Assembly: GCF_018279705.1 (NCBI RefSeq)
Contig: NZ_CP036498.1
Location: 4,915,001 to 4,979,000 of the forward strand
Length of the DNA stretch: 64,000 nt
Direction: 5' to 3'
Origin: Tardiphaga alba
GTDB taxonomy: Bacteria > Pseudomonadota > Alphaproteobacteria > Rhizobiales > Xanthobacteraceae
The notes beneath the pieces are model-generated. The model saw only the letters and a list, made by a program, of their open reading frames with translations, was not told the origin of the DNA and made no database searches. Every line of letters starts with the position of its first letter. The stretch's first letter is position 1. Below are positions 18,866 to 30,324 of this stretch, in pieces. The position numbers and the translations under genes are program-made.

Positions 18866-20248
18866 ATGCATTCCGCCTTTGTCGTCGCCCCTACGACCGC
18901 CGTCACCCCCATCACCTTTGCAACCCGGACCACCTGGCCGGAACTCGCAGCGAAGCTCCCACCGATGGCACAGGCTTTCGCGACGGCCAACGGCCTCACC
19001 GCAAAGGCTGGCAGCTGGCTGGCCTTGCCAGATACCGATGGCGGAATTGCACAGGTCGTCTTCGGGCTGGAAGACGATACCGCCAAACATCGCGATCTGT
19101 TTCGGGCCGGCCAATTGCCGGGGCTTCTGCCGCCCGGCACCTACCGGTTTGCGAACGCGCCACATGACGCGCGGCTGGCCGTGCTCGCTTTCGCGCTGGG
19201 CAGCTATCGGTTCGGCCGCTATCGCAAGAATGAAACGCCGGATGTGCGGCTGGTGCCGCCGGACGGCATCGATATCGCCGAGATCAGCCGCATGGCCGAG
19301 GCCGCGACGCTGGCACGCGACCTGATCAATACGCCGTCGAACGATATGGGGCCGGAAGAACTGGCGCAGGCTGCGAAAGATCTCGCGGCACGTTTCGGCG
19401 CGGATTTCAGCTGCATCGTCGGCGACGACCTCGTGCAGCAGAACTTTCCGCTGATCCACGCCGTCGGCATGGCCTCGAGCCGGGCGCCGCGATTGATCGA
19501 TTTTTCCTGGGGTGATCCATCGCATGCCAAAGTGACACTGGTCGGCAAAGGCGTGTGCTTCGACACCGGCGGTCTCGACCTGAAACCATCATCGGGCATG
19601 CTGATCATGAAGAAGGACATGGGCGGCGCCGCCAACGTCCTCGCACTGGCGCTGATGATCATGGATGCCAAGCTTAAAGTGCGGCTGCGCGTGCTGATCC
19701 CCGCGGTGGAGAATGCGGTCGCCGGCAATGCCTTTCGCCCGCTCGACATCTTCAAATCGCGCAAAGGGCCGACGGTGGAGATCGGCAATACCGATGCGGA
19801 AGGTCGCCTCGTGCTTGCTGACGCGCTGGCACTTGCAGATGAGGACAAGCCTGACCTGCTGGTCGATCTCGGCACGTTGACAGGTGCAGCACGCGTCGCA
19901 TTGGGGCCGGAACTGCCGCCATTCTACACCAATGACGAAGACCTCGCGCTGGATGTCGCGCGCTGCGCCAAGGAGCAGAACGATCCGCTGTGGCGGCTTC
20001 CGCTATGGGCGCCTTACGATGCCTGGCTCGATTCGAAGGTCGCCAATATCAACAACGCACCATCGGGCGGATTCGCCGGCTCCATTACTTGTGCGCTGTT
20101 CCTGCAGCGCTTTGTCGAGGAGGCAAAGAGCTGGCTGCATGTCGACATCTATGGCTGGACGCCATCGGCCAAGCCGGCGCGCCCCGAAGGCGGCGAATGC
20201 CAGGCTGCCCGCGCCATCTATGCTTTGCTGAGCCAGCGCTATGGATAA
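18866..20248 (+). CDS. Leucyl aminopeptidase, M17 family
   Basis: Cytoplasmic di-zinc aminopeptidase, 460 residues. The M17 signature NTDAEGRL is present near residues 311-318, and the metal/active-site segment VGKGVCFDTGGLDLKPSSGM lies upstream. The N-terminal third is a variable domain. Length and motifs fit the PepA/PepB superfamily; the name PepA is avoided because several paralogues usually occur. It overlaps the following NlpC/P60 gene by 8 bases, so the two are coupled. This suggests joint turnover of peptides, perhaps from the cell wall (inference). Confidence 0.92.
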   Translation: MHSAFVVAPTTAVTPITFATRTTWPELAAKLPPMAQAFATANGLTAKAGSWLALPDTDGGIAQVVFGLEDDTAKHRDLFRAGQLPGLLPPGTYRFANAPHDARLAVLAFALGSYRFGRYRKNETPDVRLVPPDGIDIAEISRMAEAATLARDLINTPSNDMGPEELAQAAKDLAARFGADFSCIVGDDLVQQNFPLIHAVGMASSRAPRLIDFSWGDPSHAKVTLVGKGVCFDTGGLDLKPSSGMLIMKKDMGGAANVLALALMIMDAKLKVRLRVLIPAVENAVAGNAFRPLDIFKSRKGPTVEIGNTDAEGRLVLADALALADEDKPDLLVDLGTLTGAARVALGPELPPFYTNDEDLALDVARCAKEQNDPLWRLPLWAPYDAWLDSKVANINNAPSGGFAGSITCALFLQRFVEEAKSWLHVDIYGWTPSAKPARPEGGECQAARAIYALLSQRYG

Positions 20249-21083
20249 GCGCCTCACCCCTGCCCGGCCCGACGTGGCTGCAAAATATCTCGAAGGCAAG
20301 GTCGAGGCGGATCGCTTCGTCGCCGGCGAGGAATTTGAAATCAGCGATGGCGTCACGTCGGTGCGGCGCGATCCGTTCGGCGGCGCCATGCTGGATACAC
20401 AGGCGCTGCGCGGTGAACGCGTGACGATCTATGACCGCAATGAGGAAGGCTGGGCCTGGGGCCAGCTCAATGGCGACGGCTATGTCGGCTGGCTATCCGA
20501 TCTCGCGCTCTATCCGCCGGGCCCGACACCGACACATAAGGTGACGGCGCTTCGTACCTTCCTGTTTCCCGGCCCGTCCATCAAACTGCCGCCGATCGAC
20601 ACGCTGCCACTCGGTGCACGCATCGCCGCAACGAACATAACCGATGCATTCCTTGTGACGCATTCCGGTCACTATATCCCACGGCAGCATGTCGCTGAGC
20701 TCGGCGTGACCGAACCCGACTTCGTGGCCGTCGCCGAACGTTTTGTCGGCACGCCCTATCTCTGGGGCGGCAAGAGCAGCCTGGGGATTGACTGCTCCGG
20801 CCTCGTCCAGGTCGCATTGACAGCAGCCGGGATCGGTGCGCCCCGCGACAGCGACATGCAGGAAAGCGGCCTTGGCCGCACACTGTCGGAAGCGGAGCAG
20901 CGGCAGCTGAAGCGTGGCGACCTGATCTTCTGGAAGGGGCATGTGGCCATCGTGCGTGACGGCAACACCATGGTGCATGCCAACGCCCATCACATGGCGA
21001 CGGCTATCGAAAACACCCAAGATGCCATCGCACGGATCAAGGCAGCTGGGAGCGATGTCACCAGCATCAAGCGGCTGGATTAG
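20241..21083 (+). CDS. NlpC/P60 cysteine peptidase with SH3-like domains
   Basis: Predicted peptidoglycan or dipeptide hydrolase, 280 residues. Residues about 40-155 form SH3b-like domains (LRGERVTIYDRNEEGWAWGQL). The C-terminal NlpC/P60 domain has catalytic Cys185 (GIDCSGLVQ), His234 (KGHVAIV) and a polar third residue near His246. No signal peptide is visible, so it likely acts in the cytoplasm on recycled muropeptide-type substrates, like other SH3-NlpC proteins coupled to M17 peptidases. It overlaps the aminopeptidase gene by 8 bases and converges on the Nudix gene, overlapping it by 4. Confidence 0.9.
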   Translation: MDKRLTPARPDVAAKYLEGKVEADRFVAGEEFEISDGVTSVRRDPFGGAMLDTQALRGERVTIYDRNEEGWAWGQLNGDGYVGWLSDLALYPPGPTPTHKVTALRTFLFPGPSIKLPPIDTLPLGARIAATNITDAFLVTHSGHYIPRQHVAELGVTEPDFVAVAERFVGTPYLWGGKSSLGIDCSGLVQVALTAAGIGAPRDSDMQESGLGRTLSEAEQRQLKRGDLIFWKGHVAIVRDGNTMVHANAHHMATAIENTQDAIARIKAAGSDVTSIKRLD

Positions 21084-21721
21084 CCCGCGCGGTCATACCA
21101 GTCCTGCAGATGTCCCCGATGCAACGCCAGCCATTGCAGCGCGCTGACCATCAGGCCGTTGAACACCTGACCTTGATCGAGACCCGCGATGGCCTCGTCG
21201 ATGGAGACGACGAAGGGCCGCGTGTCCTCGTGCTCGTCAGCAAGACCGCCACGGAGCGGGACTTGGCTGCTATCGATGAAGCCGAGAAAGAACGTGACGT
21301 GCTCGTCGGTGATCCCCGGCGTCGTCAGAACACGATAGAGCGCGATCAATCGCTCAGGCGTCACACCGATCTCTTCCCGACATTCGCGCGCAGCGGCGCC
21401 CATCGCGCTTTCATCGCCGTCGATACGGCCAGCCACGATCTCCACCATGTCGCCCTGGCCGGTGGCCAGATGGGCCGGCAAACGGAACTGACGCAGCAAC
21501 ACGATCGTCCCGCGCGCCAGATCGACTGGCAACACGGCCGCAACAGGTTTTGCGCGCAGCACGTCGCGTCGCTGTCGCAGCGTCTCGTCGCCGCGAATGA
21601 TTGCAACGTCATAGCGCTCGTAAGGCAAATAGCCCTGGGCGATCGTCACCGGCGGCGAGACCGCGACGTCGATGGCCTGATCGGCGATCTCGGCCGGCTT
21701 CATCCCGTGCGCATCGCTCAT
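21080..21721 (-). CDS. Nudix hydrolase (ADP-ribose pyrophosphatase-like)
   Basis: Nucleoside diphosphate-linked hydrolase, 213 residues. The Nudix box is complete: G-x5-E-x7-REUxEExGU reads as GRIDGDE, then SAMGAAA, then RECREEIGV. The surrounding sequence (YLPYERYDVAIIRGDETLRQRRDVL and LLRQFRLPAHL) resembles ADP-ribose/ADP-sugar pyrophosphatases; the substrate is inferred. Its start overlaps the yejF-type gene stop (ATGA), so it is the last gene of the yej operon. Confidence 0.9.
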   Translation of the reverse strand: MSDAHGMKPAEIADQAIDVAVSPPVTIAQGYLPYERYDVAIIRGDETLRQRRDVLRAKPVAAVLPVDLARGTIVLLRQFRLPAHLATGQGDMVEIVAGRIDGDESAMGAAARECREEIGVTPERLIALYRVLTTPGITDEHVTFFLGFIDSSQVPLRGGLADEHEDTRPFVVSIDEAIAGLDQGQVFNGLMVSALQWLALHRGHLQDWYDRAG

Positions 21722-23355
21722 GGGGCCGCTACGTCGCCGGGCGTCGTCTCGATGCGGAAAGCTGCGGCGAACAATGCGCGCGTGTAATCCGACTTCGGAT
21801 TTTTGAACAGCTCGGCAGCCGGGCCTTCCTCGACCACCTTGCCGTGACGCATCACGATCAGATGGCTGGCCAGCGACGCGACGACGCGAAGGTCATGCGA
21901 GATGAACATGTAAGTCAGATCGCGCTTGCGCTGCAATTCGCGCAGGAGATCGACCATCTGAGCCTGGAACAGCATGTCCAGCGCACTGGTCGGCTCGTCC
22001 AGCACCACGAAGCTCGGCTCCAGCACCACGGCGCGGGCGATCGAGATACGCTGACGCTGACCACCGGAGAACTCGTGCGGATAGCGGAAGCGCATTTCGG
22101 GATCGAGGCCTACCTCCTGCAGCGCTTTGACCACGCGGGCTTCGCGCGCGTCCTCGGAAAGCGAGGGTTGATGCACACTCAAACCCTCGGCAATGATATC
22201 GCCGACCGACATGCGCGGCGACAGCGCGCCGAAGGGATCCTGGAAGACGATCTGCATATCGCGACGGATCGGGCGCATGTCCTTGAACTGCAGCCCCTGA
22301 ATGTCCTTGCCGAGAAACACGATCGGTCCCTGCGACGAGATCAGGCGCAGCAGCGCGAGGCCAAGCGTGGTTTTGCCGGAACCGGATTCGCCGACCACGC
22401 CAAGCGTCTCGCCTTCGCGCACCTTGACGCTGACGCCATCGACCGCTTTTACGTGGCCGACCGTCTTGCGCAGAAGGCCACGCTTGATCGGAAACCAGAC
22501 TTTGAGATCATCGGCGGACATTACCACGGGCGCATCCGGCCGCGGCGGCGCAGGATCAGGCTTCGGCTCGGCGGCGAGCAAAGCCTTGGTGTAGGCATGC
22601 TGGGGCGCCGTAAAGACCTGCTCGACCGGGCCCTGCTCGACAATCTCGCCATTCTTCATGACGCAGACCCGTTCAGCGATGCGGCGGACAATGCCGAGAT
22701 CGTGGGTGATGAACAGAAGACTCATGCCAAGCCGCTGACGAATGTCCGCAAGCAATGCGAGAATTTGCGCCTGAACGGTGACATCAAGCGCTGTCGTCGG
22801 CTCATCGGCGATGAGCAGGTCCGGCTCATTCGCCAGTGCCATGGCGATCATGACGCGCTGGCGCTGGCCGCCCGAGAGCTGATGCGGATAGCTGGCAAGC
22901 CGGGTTTCCGGATCGGGAATGCCGACCTGGGTCAGCAATTCGATCACCCGCGTCCGCGCCTTGCTGCCACGCAATCCGTTGTGGAGCTGCAGGATCTCGC
23001 CGATCTGCGCACCGATGGTATGCAGCGGATTGAGCGAGGTCATCGGCTCCTGGAAGATGATCGAGATATCGTTGCCGCGGATATCCCGAATGTCGTTTTC
23101 CGACATGCCGAGCAACTCATGCCCCTTGAAGCGAATGGCTCCCGACGGATGCGAGGCCATCGGATAGGGCAACAGCTTCAAAATCGACAGCGCGCTCACG
23201 GATTTGCCGGAGCCGGACTCTCCGACCAGCGCGACGCATTCGCCGCGCTTGATGTCGAACGAGACCTTGTTTACGGCAACCGACGCCTTGCCGCCTTGGT
23301 GAAAGGCAACCGACAGATCGCGGACGTCGAGAAGGGGCTGATTGATGGCGTCCAT
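21718..23355 (-). CDS. yejF: Oligopeptide/microcin C ABC transporter ATPase, fused double NBD (YejF type)
   Basis: Cytoplasmic ATPase of the YejABEF-type peptide importer, 545 residues with two complete nucleotide-binding domains. Domain 1 has Walker A GESGSGKS, signature LSGGQRQRV and Walker [13 protein letters not shown]. Domain 2 has [24 protein letters not shown] and [11 protein letters not shown]. The OppD/F-type C-terminal extension is visible in both halves. The ATG at 23355 overlaps the stop of the PIN toxin gene (ATGA), so its translation depends on the inserted toxin-antitoxin unit. Its stop overlaps the Nudix start. Confidence 0.93.
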
Positions 23356-23807
23356 CAGGAGAACTCTTTGATCAAGGCGTGGAGGCTGTGCGGATCAGTA
23401 TCGATCAATTTGAGGCCGGTTGGGATTCTCATGCGACGATCTGCCGACAAGAGGATTGAACATCCATATTGCAGCGCTGTAACGGCGTGAATCGCATCCG
23501 CAAGCTTGGTAGCTCCCATCACTCGCCGGTATGCGGCGGTCTCTATAAGAATGTCGCGATTGACCGGGCAAAGTTCGATCGCGCCACTCTCTACGATGAG
23601 ATCCAGATAATCGCGTCGCTGTAGCCGATCAGCCTTAGCGAGAATTTCCGCCAATGTGAGTTCGCTTGTGATCGCGAGCCCCGGCTTGCGAGCGAACAGC
23701 TCAAGCAATTCTGCAAGAGCGTCCGCAAGATCGCCGTTGCCCTCGACAGCATAAATAAAGACGTTCGAATCGACGTAGATCCGGGCTGTGAAGCCAGATC
23801 CGGTCAT
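23355..23807 (-). CDS. vapC: PIN-domain ribonuclease toxin (VapC type)
   Basis: Toxin of a type II system, 150 residues, a Mg-dependent ribonuclease. The four PIN acidic residues are visible: Asp13 (YVDSNVFIYA), Glu54 (TLAEILAKA), Asp104 (KLADAIHAVTA) and Asp123 (LLSADRRM). The ATG at 23807 overlaps the antitoxin stop by 4 bases (ATGA); a longer in-frame start at 23834 would overlap the antitoxin by 31. The stop overlaps the yejF ATG by 3 bases. VapC enzymes usually cleave tRNA or rRNA; the target here is unknown. Confidence 0.9.
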   Translation of the reverse strand: MTGSGFTARIYVDSNVFIYAVEGNGDLADALAELLELFARKPGLAITSELTLAEILAKADRLQRRDYLDLIVESGAIELCPVNRDILIETAAYRRVMGATKLADAIHAVTALQYGCSILLSADRRMRIPTGLKLIDTDPHSLHALIKEFS

Positions 23808-24025
23808 TCGGATTCGTCCCTCTGACGCCGCCACTCGGCGTCGATCTCTTCTTTGCTTTTGAATGGAGGTCGACGGCGGGCGAAAATCTCGGCTATGGTC
23901 GGCCGCGCCCCGCGTAGTCCATTCCCTTCTTCGATCGTCACCGTGACGACGGACGACTCGACGCCTTCCCGGAGATCTTCAGGAAGTTTTGAGACCGGAT
24001 AGTTTTCCTTAATGATCTTGTTCAT
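23804..24025 (-). CDS. vapB: VapB-type antitoxin of the PIN toxin
   Basis: Antitoxin of 73 residues, with an N-terminal region (MNKIIKENYPVSKLPEDLRE) and a C-terminal charged tail (KSKEEIDAEWRRQRDESE) that would wrap the toxin. Such antitoxins usually bind DNA and repress their own operon. The ATG at 24025 is chosen over 24037 because GGAGGT lies 4 bases upstream of it. It begins 36 bases after the yejE stop and overlaps vapC by 4. Confidence 0.85.
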   Translation of the reverse strand: MNKIIKENYPVSKLPEDLREGVESSVVTVTIEEGNGLRGARPTIAEIFARRRPPFKSKEEIDAEWRRQRDESE

Positions 24026-24061
24026 CGAAACCTCCATCCGCAGGCAGATTTTATCACAACC

Positions 24062-25240
24062 TCACCTGAACGTCTTGCGCGGATCGAAGGCGTCGCGGAC
24101 GGCTTCGCCGATAAAAATAAGCAGCGACAGCATGATCGCCACCGCGAAGAAACCGGTGAAGCCGAGCCACGGCGCCTGCACATTGGCCTTGCCCTGCGAC
24201 AGCAACTCACCCAGCGACGGCGAGCCGGGCGGCAGACCGAAGCCGAGGAAATCCAGCGCCGTCAGCGTCATCACCGACGAAGAGACGATGAAGGGCAGGA
24301 ACGTCATGGTGGCCACCATCGCGTTCGGCAGGAGATGCCGAACCATGATGCTGCGATTGGAAACGCCAAGCGCACGCGCTGCGGTGACATACTCGAAATT
24401 TCGCCCGCGCAAAAACTCTGCACGCACGAGACCGACCAGCGAGACCCATGAGAACAGCAAGAGGATGCCGAGCAGAACAAAGAAGCCAGGCACCAGCACC
24501 GCCGACAGGATGAGCAGAAGATAGAGCGACGGGATCGAACTCCAGATCTCGATGAAACGCTGGAAGGCGAGATCGACCCAGCCGCCGAAATAGCCCTGCA
24601 CGCCGCCGGCGGCGATGCCGATGATCGACGACAGGATCGTCAGCGTGAGACCGAACAGCACCGAGATACGGAATCCATAGATCAGGCGCGCGACCACATC
24701 ACGCCCCTGATCGTCGGTGCCGAGCCAGTTATATTCGAGATCCCGACAGCCCTTCAGGCCCTTCTTCTCGACCACCGGCTTGCACTGTTCCTCGGTGAGC
24801 ATCCATGTCGGCTTCGACGGTGCAGGCGTTGGAAGATCGAGGTTGTGCGTGTCGTAGGAATAACGGATCGGCGGCCAGTAGATGCTGCCGTTCTTCTCGG
24901 CGATCAGCTTTTGCAGGAACGGATCGCGATAGTCCGCCGCCGTTTCGAAATCGCCCCCGAAGGTGGTTTCCGAATAGGTCACGACCGCGGGGAAATACAG
25001 TTTGCCGTCGAACTTGATCAGGAACGGTCGATCGTTCGCAATCAGTTCGGCAAACAGTGACACGACGAACAGGATCGAGAAGATCCAGAGCGACCAGTAG
25101 CCGCGCTTGTTCGCCTTGAAATTCTGCCAGCGGCGTTTGTTGAGCGGCGACAGGCCGAGCGGCCGGCGCGAGGGCGGCACGGCTTCGCCAAGCGGCGTTT
25201 GCGTGGTGGCTTCGACGGGCATCGGTGCTGACACAGCCAT
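24062..25240 (-). CDS. yejE: Peptide ABC transporter permease YejE type
   Basis: Inner-membrane permease of the YejABEF importer, 392 residues. It is of the OppC class with a long N-terminal extension: an N-terminal helix (SLWIFSILFVVSLFAELIAN), a periplasmic loop of about 150 residues, then five helices with the binding-protein-dependent transport motif (ARALGVSNRSIMVRHLLPN). The ATG overlaps the yejB stop (ATGA). An in-frame ATG at 25282 would lie inside yejB and is rejected. Confidence 0.93.
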   Translation of the reverse strand: MAVSAPMPVEATTQTPLGEAVPPSRRPLGLSPLNKRRWQNFKANKRGYWSLWIFSILFVVSLFAELIANDRPFLIKFDGKLYFPAVVTYSETTFGGDFETAADYRDPFLQKLIAEKNGSIYWPPIRYSYDTHNLDLPTPAPSKPTWMLTEEQCKPVVEKKGLKGCRDLEYNWLGTDDQGRDVVARLIYGFRISVLFGLTLTILSSIIGIAAGGVQGYFGGWVDLAFQRFIEIWSSIPSLYLLLILSAVLVPGFFVLLGILLLFSWVSLVGLVRAEFLRGRNFEYVTAARALGVSNRSIMVRHLLPNAMVATMTFLPFIVSSSVMTLTALDFLGFGLPPGSPSLGELLSQGKANVQAPWLGFTGFFAVAIMLSLLIFIGEAVRDAFDPRKTFR

Positions 25241-26350: not shown

Positions 26351-28237
26351 CTATTTTGCCTGCTCGGTCGCAGCGTTGCTGGCCATGGCCCACCACAGTT
26401 CGGGGGCGCCGGCGCCAGTATATTTCGGCAGATCGGCGGGGTGGCCGAACACGTCCCAATAGGCCAATCGATGCTTGTTCGAATACCATTGCGGCACCCA
26501 GTAGCGACCGGCGCGAATGACGCGATCGAGAGCCCGCGCAGCGAAGACCAGCTTCGGCCGCGTATCTGCGGCAATCACCGTCTCGACCAGCGCATCGATC
26601 ACCGGATCGGACATTCCGGAGAGATTCTTCGAGCCTTTTGTCGCTGCCGATTGCGACGTGAAGAATGGGCGCAAGGAATCGCCAGGCACCGTCGAGAAGC
26701 CGAAGCGCTCCATCGTGATGTCGAAGTCGAAATCATTGCGGCGCGCCTGGGACTGGACGGGATCGACGAGGCGCGGCGTGGCCTCGATGCCGAGGGTGCC
26801 GAGATTCTTGATGAACGGTGCGTGATGGGCCTGCAGAGCCGGCTCGTCATAGAGAAATTCGATCCGGAACGGCTCGCCTTGCGCCGTCATCCGCTTGCCG
26901 TCCTTCATCACGCAGCCGGCATCGCTGAGAAGCTGGATAGCACGACGCAACAGCGAGCGATCCTGCCCCGATCCGTCGGAGACCGGCGGAACATAGGGAT
27001 TGCCGAACACTTCCGCCGGCACCTTGCTACGGAACGGTTCGAGCAATGCCAGCTCTTCCGGCGACGGCGGACCACTCGCCATCAGGTCCGAATTCTGGAA
27101 TGGCGATACCGTGCGCACATAGGCGCCATACATGATGGTCTTGTTGGTCCACTCGAAGTCGAACGCATTGCCGAGTGCCTCGCGCACGCGCGGGTCCTGA
27201 AACTTGGCGCGGCGCGTGTTCAGGAACCAGCCCTGCGCTCCGGACGGCGTATCGTCCGGCAAGGTCTCCTGCTTGACGCGACCGTCCTTGATGGCCGGAA
27301 AATCGTAGCGCGTATTCCAGATGCGCGACGTGAACTCTTCACGGTAGAGATAGTTGCGGCCGGTAAAACCTTCGAAGGCAACGTCACGGTCGCGATAGAA
27401 ATCGAAGCGCACCGTATCGAAATTGTTGCTGCCGCGGTTCACCGGCAGATCGGTGCCCCACCAATCCTTGACGCGATCGAACTCGATGAAGCGGCCGGGC
27501 TCGAAGCGACCGACCTTGTATGGTCCGCTGCCCAGCGGGATGTCGAGGGACGATTCATCGAAGGCACGCTTGTCGTAATAGGCCTGCGAGAAGATCGGCA
27601 TCGCCGCAACGAATAGCGGCACGTCACGCCCGCGCTTCTCAGCAAAGGTGACGACGAGCGTGGCGTCATCGACCGCTTCGGCTTTGACGACATCGCGCAT
27701 CTGGGTGACGATGATCGGATGCCCTTTGGTCTTCAGTGTCGTCAGCGACCAAGCGGCATCTTTGGCCGTAAGCTTGCTGCCGTCATGGAAGCGCGCTTCG
27801 GGCCGGATGGTGAAACGGTAGATCAGCCCATCGGCCGAAATGCGGACCGACTTTGCGGCCAGTCCATACATCGCATCGGGCTCGTCGCCGGCGCGGGCCA
27901 TCAGGGTCGTGAAGGTCATCCCCATGCCCTGTGCACCATCTCCTTTGAGGATGAAGGCGTTCAGCGAATTGAAAGTCTGGAATGACTGATTGAACGCGCG
28001 CGTTGACGGCACCGTCGAGAACGTGCCGCCCTTCGGCGCCTTGACGTTCACATAGTCGAAGTTCGGAAAATCTGCGGGGTATTTCAGATCACCGAACGCC
28101 GACATGCCATGCGCATCGACATCGGCGGGCTTCGTCTCGCTCTGCGCCAGAGCGGGACTGAACTGCGACGCGGCGATGGCGCCGAGGCCAAGACCAACGC
28201 CAAGACCGAGCACGTGCCGACGATCGAGTTGCGCCAT
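26351..28237 (-). CDS. yejA: Peptide/microcin C ABC transporter binding protein, YejA type (copy 1)
   Basis: Periplasmic family 5 solute-binding protein, 628 residues. The signal region (RRHVLGLGVGLGLGAIAASQF, cleavage near ALA-QS) is twin-arginine-like. The mature domain starts DVDAHGMSAFGDLKYPADFPNFDYVNVKAPKGGTF, which is typical of YejA/MppA-like peptide receptors. The ATG at 28237 is chosen because the signal begins there; the in-frame extension to 28363 lies in the upstream gene. It follows copy 2 by 14 bases. Homologues bind oligopeptides, including antimicrobial peptides and microcin C; the ligand here is unknown. Confidence 0.9.
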   Translation of the reverse strand: MAQLDRRHVLGLGVGLGLGAIAASQFSPALAQSETKPADVDAHGMSAFGDLKYPADFPNFDYVNVKAPKGGTFSTVPSTRAFNQSFQTFNSLNAFILKGDGAQGMGMTFTTLMARAGDEPDAMYGLAAKSVRISADGLIYRFTIRPEARFHDGSKLTAKDAAWSLTTLKTKGHPIIVTQMRDVVKAEAVDDATLVVTFAEKRGRDVPLFVAAMPIFSQAYYDKRAFDESSLDIPLGSGPYKVGRFEPGRFIEFDRVKDWWGTDLPVNRGSNNFDTVRFDFYRDRDVAFEGFTGRNYLYREEFTSRIWNTRYDFPAIKDGRVKQETLPDDTPSGAQGWFLNTRRAKFQDPRVREALGNAFDFEWTNKTIMYGAYVRTVSPFQNSDLMASGPPSPEELALLEPFRSKVPAEVFGNPYVPPVSDGSGQDRSLLRRAIQLLSDAGCVMKDGKRMTAQGEPFRIEFLYDEPALQAHHAPFIKNLGTLGIEATPRLVDPVQSQARRNDFDFDITMERFGFSTVPGDSLRPFFTSQSAATKGSKNLSGMSDPVIDALVETVIAADTRPKLVFAARALDRVIRAGRYWVPQWYSNKHRLAYWDVFGHPADLPKYTGAGAPELWWAMASNAATEQAK

Positions 28238-28251
28238 GCGCGATTGCCGGC

Positions 28252-30159
28252 TCAAGAGCGGCCGCCCGTCTTGGCAGCCTTCTCGGCGTCCCACCACCAG
28301 ATGGAGGGGAAGCCGGACTGGCCATATTTCGGTGGCTCGGGCGGACGGCCGAAACGATCCCACCGCGCTGTGCGGACCTTGTTATAGGTCCATTGCGGGA
28401 CGACGTAATTGTGCCAGAGTAGCACGCGGTCGAGCGCCTTGGTGGCGGCAACGAGATCGTCGCGGTCCTTGGTGAAGATCACGCGGTCGATCAGTTTGTC
28501 GATCGCCGGATTCTTGATGCCGATGAGATTGCGGGAGCCGGCCTGATCAGCAGCCTGAGAGCCCCAATATTCGCGCTGCTCATTGCCGGGCGACAGCGAT
28601 TCCGGCCATGACGACACCACGATGTCGAAATCCCAGCTGCGCAGCCGGTTCTCGTATTGCGTGGCGTCGATGGTGCGGACGGAGACATTGATGCCGAGAC
28701 GCTCGAGCGACGGCTTGAAGAACAGCATCACGCGCTCGAAACTCGGATCCTCGCCGAGCAGTTCGATCTCGAACGGAGCGCCCGTCTTGGCATCGACGAG
28801 CTTGCGCTCGCGGATTTCGTAGCCGGCCTCTTTCAGCAGCTGCATCGCCTCGCGCAGATTGCTGCGCACATTCTCCGCACTGCCGCCGACCGGATTCGTA
28901 TAGGTCTTGGTGAAGATCTCCGGCGGCACATCGGCGCGCACGGTTTCAAGGATCTCCAGCTCCTTGCCTTGCGGCAAGCCGCTCGAAGCGAGTTCCGTGC
29001 CTTCGAAATAACTCGCGATCCGCTTGTATTGACCGAAGAAGATCTGCTTGTTCATTTCCTCGAAATCAAAGGCGAAGTTCAGCGCGCGACGCACGCGCGC
29101 ATCCTTGAACTTGTCGCGACGGAGATTCATCGCGAAGGCCTGCATGATCCCGGAGGAGCGATTGGTGAATTCCTCGAGGATCACGCGCTTTTCGGCGACC
29201 GCCGGGAAATCATAGGCCGTCGCCCAGTTCTTGGCGCTGTTCTCGGTGCGCCAATCGACCTGATCGCCCTTGAACGCTTCGAGCGCGACGGTGCCATCGC
29301 GGAAATATTCGTAGCGGATCTCATCGAAATTGTTCCGGCCGACATTCACGGCGAGCTTGGCGCCCCAATGATCCCTGACGCGCTCGACGACCACATTGCG
29401 GCCTGCCGAAAAATCCTTGATGCGATATCCCGCGCTGCCAAGCGGCAATTCCAGCGTGGTGCTGCCGATATCGCGCTTCTGGCCGGACGCGTTGGTGCCC
29501 TCCCACCAGTGCTTGGGCAGAACCGTGAGCTGGCCGACAATCTGTGGCAATTCGCGATTGCCGGGTCCATCAAAGGTGAATTTGACCTCGCGATCGCCGA
29601 CCTTCTCGGCCTTCACGACGTGACGATAATAGGCCGAATATTGCGGCGAGTATTTCTTGAAGGAGTCGAGCGAGAAGATGACGTCTTCAGGCGTCACCGG
29701 CTTGCCGTCGTGCCACTTCGCCTCGGCACGCAGGCGATAGCTCACCCAGGAATAATCCTCGGGATGGCTGACGGCTTCGGCCAGCAAACCATACTCGGTC
29801 GAGACCTCATCCAGCGACGCCGTGGTCAGCGATTCATAGATCAGCCCGACGGCGCCGGCGATGTTGCCCTTCACGCCGGCCACCGCGATGTTGAAATTGT
29901 CGAACGTGCCGAGTGCGATCTGGCGCACGGTGCCACCCTTCGGGGCGTCCGGATTGACGTAATCGAAGCGCTTGAAGCCTGCCGGATACTTGATCTCGCC
30001 GAACAGCGACAGCGCGTGACGCCATTCGGCGCTGCCGGCCGCGGCGGCAGGTTGCGCCTGGGCCGCCTCGCTCAGCGGGAGACTACCGATCCCCCCGAGC
30101 ACCGGCGTGAGAGCAGCAAATGCGGTGGTCTTCAGAAGGCGGCGTCGGGAGATCGTCAA
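28252..30159 (-). CDS. yejA: Peptide ABC transporter binding protein, YejA type (copy 2)
   Basis: Second family 5 receptor of the same operon, about 635 residues. A Tat-like signal (SRRRLLKTTAFAALTPVLG) precedes the mature part, which begins WRHALSLFGEIKYPAGFKRFDYVNPDAPKGGT. Alignment by eye with copy 1 shows clear homology but much divergence. The start is probably a TTG at 30159 with AGGA upstream; an in-frame ATG at 30270 would put 37 extra residues before the signal. It is the first gene of the yej operon. Two receptors for one permease suggest two ligands. Confidence 0.86.
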   Translation of the reverse strand: MTISRRRLLKTTAFAALTPVLGGIGSLPLSEAAQAQPAAAAGSAEWRHALSLFGEIKYPAGFKRFDYVNPDAPKGGTVRQIALGTFDNFNIAVAGVKGNIAGAVGLIYESLTTASLDEVSTEYGLLAEAVSHPEDYSWVSYRLRAEAKWHDGKPVTPEDVIFSLDSFKKYSPQYSAYYRHVVKAEKVGDREVKFTFDGPGNRELPQIVGQLTVLPKHWWEGTNASGQKRDIGSTTLELPLGSAGYRIKDFSAGRNVVVERVRDHWGAKLAVNVGRNNFDEIRYEYFRDGTVALEAFKGDQVDWRTENSAKNWATAYDFPAVAEKRVILEEFTNRSSGIMQAFAMNLRRDKFKDARVRRALNFAFDFEEMNKQIFFGQYKRIASYFEGTELASSGLPQGKELEILETVRADVPPEIFTKTYTNPVGGSAENVRSNLREAMQLLKEAGYEIRERKLVDAKTGAPFEIELLGEDPSFERVMLFFKPSLERLGINVSVRTIDATQYENRLRSWDFDIVVSSWPESLSPGNEQREYWGSQAADQAGSRNLIGIKNPAIDKLIDRVIFTKDRDDLVAATKALDRVLLWHNYVVPQWTYNKVRTARWDRFGRPPEPPKYGQSGFPSIWWWDAEKAAKTGGRS

Positions 30160-30324
30160 TGTGCTGAATCCTGTGAACCGAAGCAGTCGAGTAGAACCGC
30201 GATATAAGGCGAGGGTTCGACCGATTATGCCGGCTTTTCCGCAAGATACCACCCGACGCCTTGCTTGCATCCTAACGCGTTGCGGCCAAACGTCCCGCTT
30301 AAGCTTTGGTAATGCGCAAACGAC

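Follow-up and report, generated by a model that had tools for sequence, protein, structure and literature searches.

Gene layout at the yej locus

The window, meaning the whole stretch of DNA analyzed here, comprises 64,000 nucleotides from Tardiphaga alba (contig NZ_CP036498.1, positions 4,915,001 to 4,979,000) and contains the yejB-yejE-yejF gene order of the YejABEF operon. Between yejE and yejF, on the same strand, lies a vapB-vapC toxin-antitoxin pair (Table 1), as had been proposed in an earlier annotation made from the letters of the window, here called the sequence-only reading. The 36-nt gap between yejE and vapB and the 4-nt ATGA overlap of vapB and vapC given in that reading are correct, but its 3-base overlap of the vapC stop codon with the yejF ATG is not. 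The vapC stop TGA occupies positions 23357–23355 and the yejF ATG positions 23355–23353, and the two codons share a single base. An additional in-frame ATG for vapB is located at 24037.

Table 1. Features of the yej locus and its surroundings (window coordinates)
Feature	Position	Strand	Remarks
SBP_bac_5 solute-binding-protein gene	28252-30270	−	upstream of yejB
SBP_bac_5 solute-binding-protein gene	26351-28363	−	upstream of yejB; frames of the two genes overlap as listed
yejE	24062..25240	−	permease gene upstream of the cassette
Terminator-like consensus site	24120..24145	−	within the yejE 3' end, before vapB; consensus match only, in three overlapping calls
AAGACG	24071..24076	−	candidate −35 hexamer, weak, 17 nt upstream of the −10-like hexamer
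TGATAAAAT	24048..24056	−	extended −10-like element preceding vapB
GGAGG	24031..24035	−	putative vapB ribosome-binding site
vapB	23804..24025	−	antitoxin gene, 73 aa, ATG start at 24025
vapC	23355..23807	−	PIN-domain RNase toxin gene, 150 aa, ATG start; 4-nt overlap with vapB
TGATG	23353..23357	−	vapC stop/yejF start junction, one base common to both
yejF	21718..23355	−	ATPase gene, ATG start
NUDIX-domain gene	21080..21721	−	4-nt overlap with the end of yejF
M17 aminopeptidase and NlpC/P60 peptidase genes	18866-21083	+	mutual 8-nt overlap; directed toward the yej operon

YejE and YejB score above the NCBIfam cut-offs for microcin C permeases, while the best NCBIfam match of YejF is YejF itself, yet under the cut-off (751.6 of 834 bits). 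VapC is a Pfam PIN match (E 2.7e-16) that falls below the cut-off of the NCBIfam VapC subfamily TIGR00028 (16.7 vs 73.6 bits), and VapB matches no Pfam or NCBIfam family above cut-off. Because the NUDIX-domain gene overlaps the end of yejF, the yej operon probably extends beyond yejF, and this gene is the probable last gene of the yej transcript. The two peptidase genes, of which the NlpC/P60 gene encodes a dipeptidyl-peptidase SH3 domain, likely form a neighborhood for cell-wall-peptide processing. Together with the two solute-binding-protein genes, they fit a role in the processing of peptides and wall fragments.

This arrangement resembles those of YejABEF and YejBEF-YepA, for which the available text of the importer papers places yejB, yejE, yejF and a substrate-binding-protein gene in one operon (PMC9790009, PMC8406287, PMC10128002). 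In Agrobacterium tumefaciens, yejA, yejB, yejE and yejF are Atu0187 to Atu0190 in the same sources, and since these tags are consecutive, no gene should lie between yejE and yejF there, unlike in the window. As the available text describes it, YejBEF together with YepA imports muropeptides in Agrobacterium and affects β-lactam resistance (PMC9790009), while YejABEF admits the peptide antibiotic phazolicin in Sinorhizobium meliloti (PMC10128002) and matters for NCR peptide resistance (PMC8406287). Neither PMC9790009 nor PMC10128002 uses the word 'toxin' in its main text. The sequence-only reading had placed the locus in the context of microcin C-type uptake. Because muropeptides are imported by the Agrobacterium system, such uptake is one part of the context only.

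Distribution of the cassette at the yejE–yejF junction

With the window VapC as a single query, 59 matches were found in 58 of the 248 genomes of the window's family. Most of these (53 of 59) are located at the yejE–yejF junction, one of them (L179) with yejF as the only flank, and six are elsewhere (L173, L175–L178, L180). In all 30 of the best family loci, VapC lies between yejE and yejF; the fixed location is beyond chance. As a control, another VapBC of the window's genome (137-aa VapC), present in 53 of the 248 genomes, was examined in the same way. Its 30 best loci (L424-L453) have a flanking protein in common in 167 of 435 pairs, against 435 of 435 for the yej loci, and 18 of the 30 adjoin what appears, by eye, to be an aminotransferase gene. 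Conserved neighbors are therefore not unique to the yej module, although their degree is higher there. A second control VapC had matches in just seven genomes.

The family census begins with yejE, which was located in 240 of the 248 genomes, and covers the 231 genomes with a readable junction, the 17 genomes with no resolved junction being left out. Intact vapBC is present at 49 junctions, broken vapC at three and a vapB remnant at four; 173 are empty, including two (L149 and L291) in which masked bases had misplaced the yejF start, and two are unclear (L145, L327). VapBC occurs in 20 of the 43 family genera with a resolved junction, and both states are found in 14 genera. Empty junctions mostly measure −4 to 14 nt among all loci fetched, and those of the nearest relatives of the window (L032–L035, YejE 94–97% identical) are 8–9 nt long. 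The idea that the importer needs its toxin thus gains no support, because 173 of 231 junctions are bare, those of the closest relatives included.

An order-wide survey used a profile of 49 yej VapCs on 397 genomes (E ≤ 1e-10), a profile that by its construction favors yej matches. All 67 matches were examined, and 58 are at the junction (57 with both flanks, and L186 with yejF only), spanning 21 family codes of the order, the window's own included. The other nine are located elsewhere (L188, L226, L244, L257–L262). The empty junctions of L032–L035 are what would be expected if the window's cassette were a chance, strain-specific insertion with no particular meaning. However, the filled junctions of the 20 family genera and of the 21 family codes refute this explanation, which we regard as practically untenable.

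The antitoxin was surveyed separately, with 10 yej VapBs of the family as queries against 84,980 named genomes. Of 206 matched stretches, at least 80 loci were confirmed. Among the matches listed, yejE precedes vapB in 80 of 80 loci, a VapC match is present in 78 and yejF in 76. Three of the four listed loci that lack yejF run off the contig; the fourth, L378, is a complete locus with yejE and VapBC and no yejF in 3 kb of downstream DNA. The genera represented include Ancylobacter, Xanthobacter, Rhizobium, Neorhizobium, Devosia, Bosea, Microvirga, Methylocystis, Methylosinus and Pannonibacter, all of which we take to be Hyphomicrobiales. Two metagenome records are labelled differently or more broadly, as Rhodospirillum (L375) and Alphaproteobacteria (L391). 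Outside the order, a search of 385 genomes of the class gave 15 VapC matches in 14 genomes, none of them beside yejE; one (L213) has only a stretch that is 32% identical to part of YejF.

Anatomy of the cassette and the element before vapB

The loci yielded 168 distinct inserts, and after removal of seven with a broken or short VapC, 161 with a stop-free VapC of normal length were compared. This set includes the frameshifted L091, counted as broken in the junction census, and four copies in which D13 or E54 is missing or changed (L210, L251, L367; L232). The acidic PIN positions D13, E54, D104 and D123 are kept in 158, 160, 160 and 158 copies, respectively. The vapC stop and yejF start overlap by at least 1 nt in 143 copies (4 nt in 110, 1 nt in 17), and the vapB/vapC overlap is 4 nt in 62 of the 161. 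The comparison of yej operons that the sequence-only reading had called for thus returned a conserved insertion with the same overlaps in 21 family codes. Median dN/dS, calculated over independent close pairs, is 0.13 for vapC (29 pairs), 0.15 for vapB (24), 0.11 for yejF (28) and 0.05 for yejE (29). By these measures, VapC is under purifying selection and retains its catalytic residues. In the PDB, the yej VapC profile matches the sequence of one protein only, 'Ribonuclease VapC' 7by2/7by3 (E 4.2e-8), which is distant by sequence.

The antitoxin is less easily classified. A VapB profile detects vapB in 152 of the 161 intact copies, and six of the remaining nine have no room for one. The start of VapB is conserved (consensus MNKIVRExYPVxKLPEDLREG), and its middle varies. 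Among 39 yej VapBs there is no consistent Pfam family match and none to SpoVT-AbrB/MazE; by profile, the N-terminal part is weakly similar to AbrB-type antitoxins (a single hhalign comparison, probability 68.5, E 4.6e-5), with 1 of 100 column shuffles scoring as high or higher. A weak predicted model (pLDDT 70) found no PDB fold match in a structure search. The profile match suggests an AbrB-like N-terminus in the usual VapB, which the structure search did not confirm.

Some yej loci encode an antitoxin of 130–149 aa instead. In four of these (L163, L023, L020, L022), an N-terminal stretch is YdaS-like, below the Pfam cut-off, and the C-terminus resembles that of some short VapBs, as if the DNA-binding part had been exchanged. 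Other arrangements were also observed. At L188:295-1016 (−), a VapC near the yej profile yet outside a yej operon is accompanied by a clear MazE/AbrB antitoxin (E 4.7e-14). L195 has a 1,425-nt junction in which, by eye, vapBC is preceded by another pair of small genes with a PIN-like product. In L059, L066 and L084, junctions of 203 nt retain the N-terminal part of the antitoxin alone and a promoter-like motif. The remnant of L059 and L066 reads as a 54-aa ORF ending directly before the yejF start; this pair differs by five synonymous and nine non-synonymous changes (pN/pS 0.55), too few to judge whether it is a mini-repressor.

Across loci, a motif near TGTGGTAGGAT, presumably of the extended −10 type, occurs between yejE and vapB. 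In a count that took in 139 of the 161 loci, the strict form TGNTANNNT occurs in 73 of the 130 spacers that are 17 nt or longer, against a mean of 2.8 and a maximum of 9 in 500 mononucleotide shuffles. It is missing from the nine shorter spacers and from all 164 distinct empty junctions, and four control stretches have it in 0, 0, 0 and 1 of 130 cases. The remaining 57 spacers include 31 above a 5% shuffle threshold, against an expectation of 2.85. Matches to a −35 element are poor across the aligned loci, mostly two to three of six positions. At ten loci, 6 nt separate the end of the motif from vapB, which would give a leaderless message. Because the element precedes vapB and is missing from the 164 empty junctions, yejF may gain a second promoter where the cassette is present.

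A scan with a general promoter consensus did not call the site on the − strand of the window. The same scan found four terminator-like sites in the region, against a shuffle mean of 1.1, and if those at the end of yejE are real, they argue against read-through and for the element before vapB. The sequence-only reading had contrasted this pair with VapBC modules that have their own promoter; since a match to the extended −10 consensus directly precedes vapB, that contrast finds no support as worded. At L175:1693-2420, in the window's genus, a yej-type VapBC lies between unrelated genes, while the yej junction of the same genome is empty (L039). Its VapC falls within a supported group of yej VapCs in the tree, and TGATAGATT is kept before vapB. 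The promoter-like element therefore travels with the module.

Allele exchange, antitoxin-free toxins and the possible role of the cassette

A VapC tree was built from 119 of the 161 yej VapCs and 16 of 30 non-yej VapCs; its deep branches are weak. Holding all yej VapCs and L175 together gives a log-likelihood 16.65 above that of the free quick tree (p-AU 0.70), and a single yej clade, with one origin instead of many captures, is not rejected by this test. VapC and YejF distances correlate weakly, both over 154 loci, seven of the 161 having been dropped (r 0.22, 0 of 199 permutations as high), and over the 48 family loci (r 0.16, 1 of 999 as high). Of the roughly 128 pairs of loci whose yejF is more than 90% identical, 28 have VapCs less than 40% identical. 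On a YejE+F tree with 228 labelled genomes from the family, of which 55 are filled and 173 empty, the junction state changes at least 30 times. As these trees and distances show, the junction behaves as a slot in which the cassette has been gained, lost and replaced by divergent alleles many times at one site. Recombination in the flanking yej genes would most simply be the route of exchange.

These features bear directly on the main rival to a role in the operon, in which VapBC is a selfish hitchhiker that gains a safe, well-transcribed address. Its position in a coupled junction, its own promoter and the start/stop overlap would spare yejF, and it would persist by addiction and flanking recombination with no role in import. 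The scattered occurrence of the cassette, with 173 of 231 junctions in the family empty and a minimum of 30 changes of state, the replacement of alleles in those 28 pairs, and the existence of broken and remnant copies all speak for such a hitchhiker, which accounts for the patchiness equally well. However, there is no sign of plasmid or phage traffic, as a search of 72,556 plasmid records gave one distant match and a search of phage records none, and L175 is the only relocated copy found. The hitchhiker also fails on the six genomes described below, in which a catalytically complete VapC has no antitoxin, a state that plain addiction does not predict. We consider it a real possibility, if on balance an improbable one. 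Cargo of a mobile element was rejected by the genome, plasmid and phage surveys. The cassette is found in many genomes and not in one strain with mobility traces, and the repeats around or inside it are all short (11–17 nt) and imperfect.

It may also be that the VapC alleles cut different tRNAs, as a defence or bet-hedging measure against phages or against translation-blocking peptides that enter through YejABEF, with allele exchange reflecting an arms race. Alleles less than 40% identical between species with yejF more than 90% identical would fit this, as would the entry of phazolicin into S. meliloti via YejABEF described in the available text of PMC10128002. However, VapC and VapB matched none of 5,027 PADLOC defence models at E values up to 0.1, and selection within alleles is purifying, with a median dN/dS of 0.13. 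Defence has the least support as a role for the cassette, and we think it quite improbable.

In six genomes from two family codes (L207 and L230; L245, L249, L252 and L253), the insert measures 435–450 nt and encodes VapC alone. All four acidic residues are kept in all six, and in L207 and L230, vapC overlaps yejE and yejF alike by ATGA. A VapB-profile search that detected the antitoxin in three known carriers found no clear antitoxin elsewhere in these six genomes; one weak 42-aa match was seen (G288, E 0.02). This absence covers the yej VapB family, and an unrelated antitoxin is possible. The two groups are separate in the VapC tree, where deep branches are weak, and the sole close antitoxin-free vapC pair has a dN/dS of 0.07. 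An antitoxin-free toxin in the yej operon may thus have a job of its own there. Taken further, VapC could itself work for the operon, as a PIN RNase through which translation or yej mRNA is matched to the uptake of peptides and wall fragments. The antitoxin would then be an optional governor, and the antitoxin-free forms the end point of a path from toxin to transporter-linked regulator. This extension is tentative, and we hold it to be rather unlikely.

To the reading that we prefer, we give about as much credence as doubt: the cassette would be a type II VapBC that has long belonged to the yej operon, at one fixed position, in many Hyphomicrobiales, as judged by named records, and that is active and co-expressed with YejF, with a presumed effect on import. 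By comparison across loci, junction occupancy, a predicted PIN RNase with its catalytic residues, the usual overlap with yejF and the usual promoter-like element before vapB are shown. A vapB-vapC-yejF(-NUDIX) message would arise by transcription from the vapB element, whether or not read-through from upstream contributes. Ribosomes finishing vapC would re-start at yejF, so that YejF would be made in step with the toxin. If VapBC represses its own promoter, like other VapBCs, the balance of antitoxin and toxin would tune YejF supply, and freed VapC would slow translation under stress. Alleles would spread through homologous recombination in the flanking yej genes.

Several results count against such an operon-integrated module. 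These are the lack of the cassette in 173 of 231 family genomes, the number of state changes and the weak agreement of VapC and YejF distances; the missing motif in all nine short spacers, the poor −35 matches and the uncalled window site; and the partly conserved neighbors of the control VapBC (18 of 30 loci), together with the lack of a yejF in the downstream DNA of L378. The sequence-only interpretation, that peptide uptake could be tied to toxin expression, is partly supported, and the link to uptake is one that we infer.

The best-described comparison is vapBC10 of S. meliloti, which, in the available text of PMC10945364, forms its own operon, has an HTH antitoxin similar to VapB30 of Mycobacterium tuberculosis, and has a demonstrated tRNA-Ser target. 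Like vapBC10, the yej module is chromosomal and has a small antitoxin gene followed by one for a PIN-domain RNase, although the ends of the two genes overlap by 1 nt in vapBC10 vs 4 nt in the yej module (PMC10945364). Unlike vapBC10 as presented there, the yej module is embedded in a transporter operon and overlaps the gene that follows, and its antitoxin belongs to no family above cut-off. Targeted searches of the open-access literature, a scope outside which most subscription papers and preprints fall, found no paper linking yejF to VapC, yejE to a PIN domain, or microcin C transport to VapC. VapBC itself is of a known kind; what appears to be new here, from the comparison of loci, is an order-wide, operon-embedded VapBC with toxin-only derivatives.

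The role of chromosomal toxin-antitoxin modules has long been disputed, partly because most of them wander. The yej VapBC holds a fixed address across an order, beside the ATPase gene of an importer that, for Agrobacterium, the available text of PMC9790009 connects with the recycling of the cell wall and with resistance to β-lactams. Since junctions occur in filled, empty, toxin-only and antitoxin-remnant form, they provide a natural set of test strains, in which the antitoxin-free VapC makes the domestication of a toxin directly testable.
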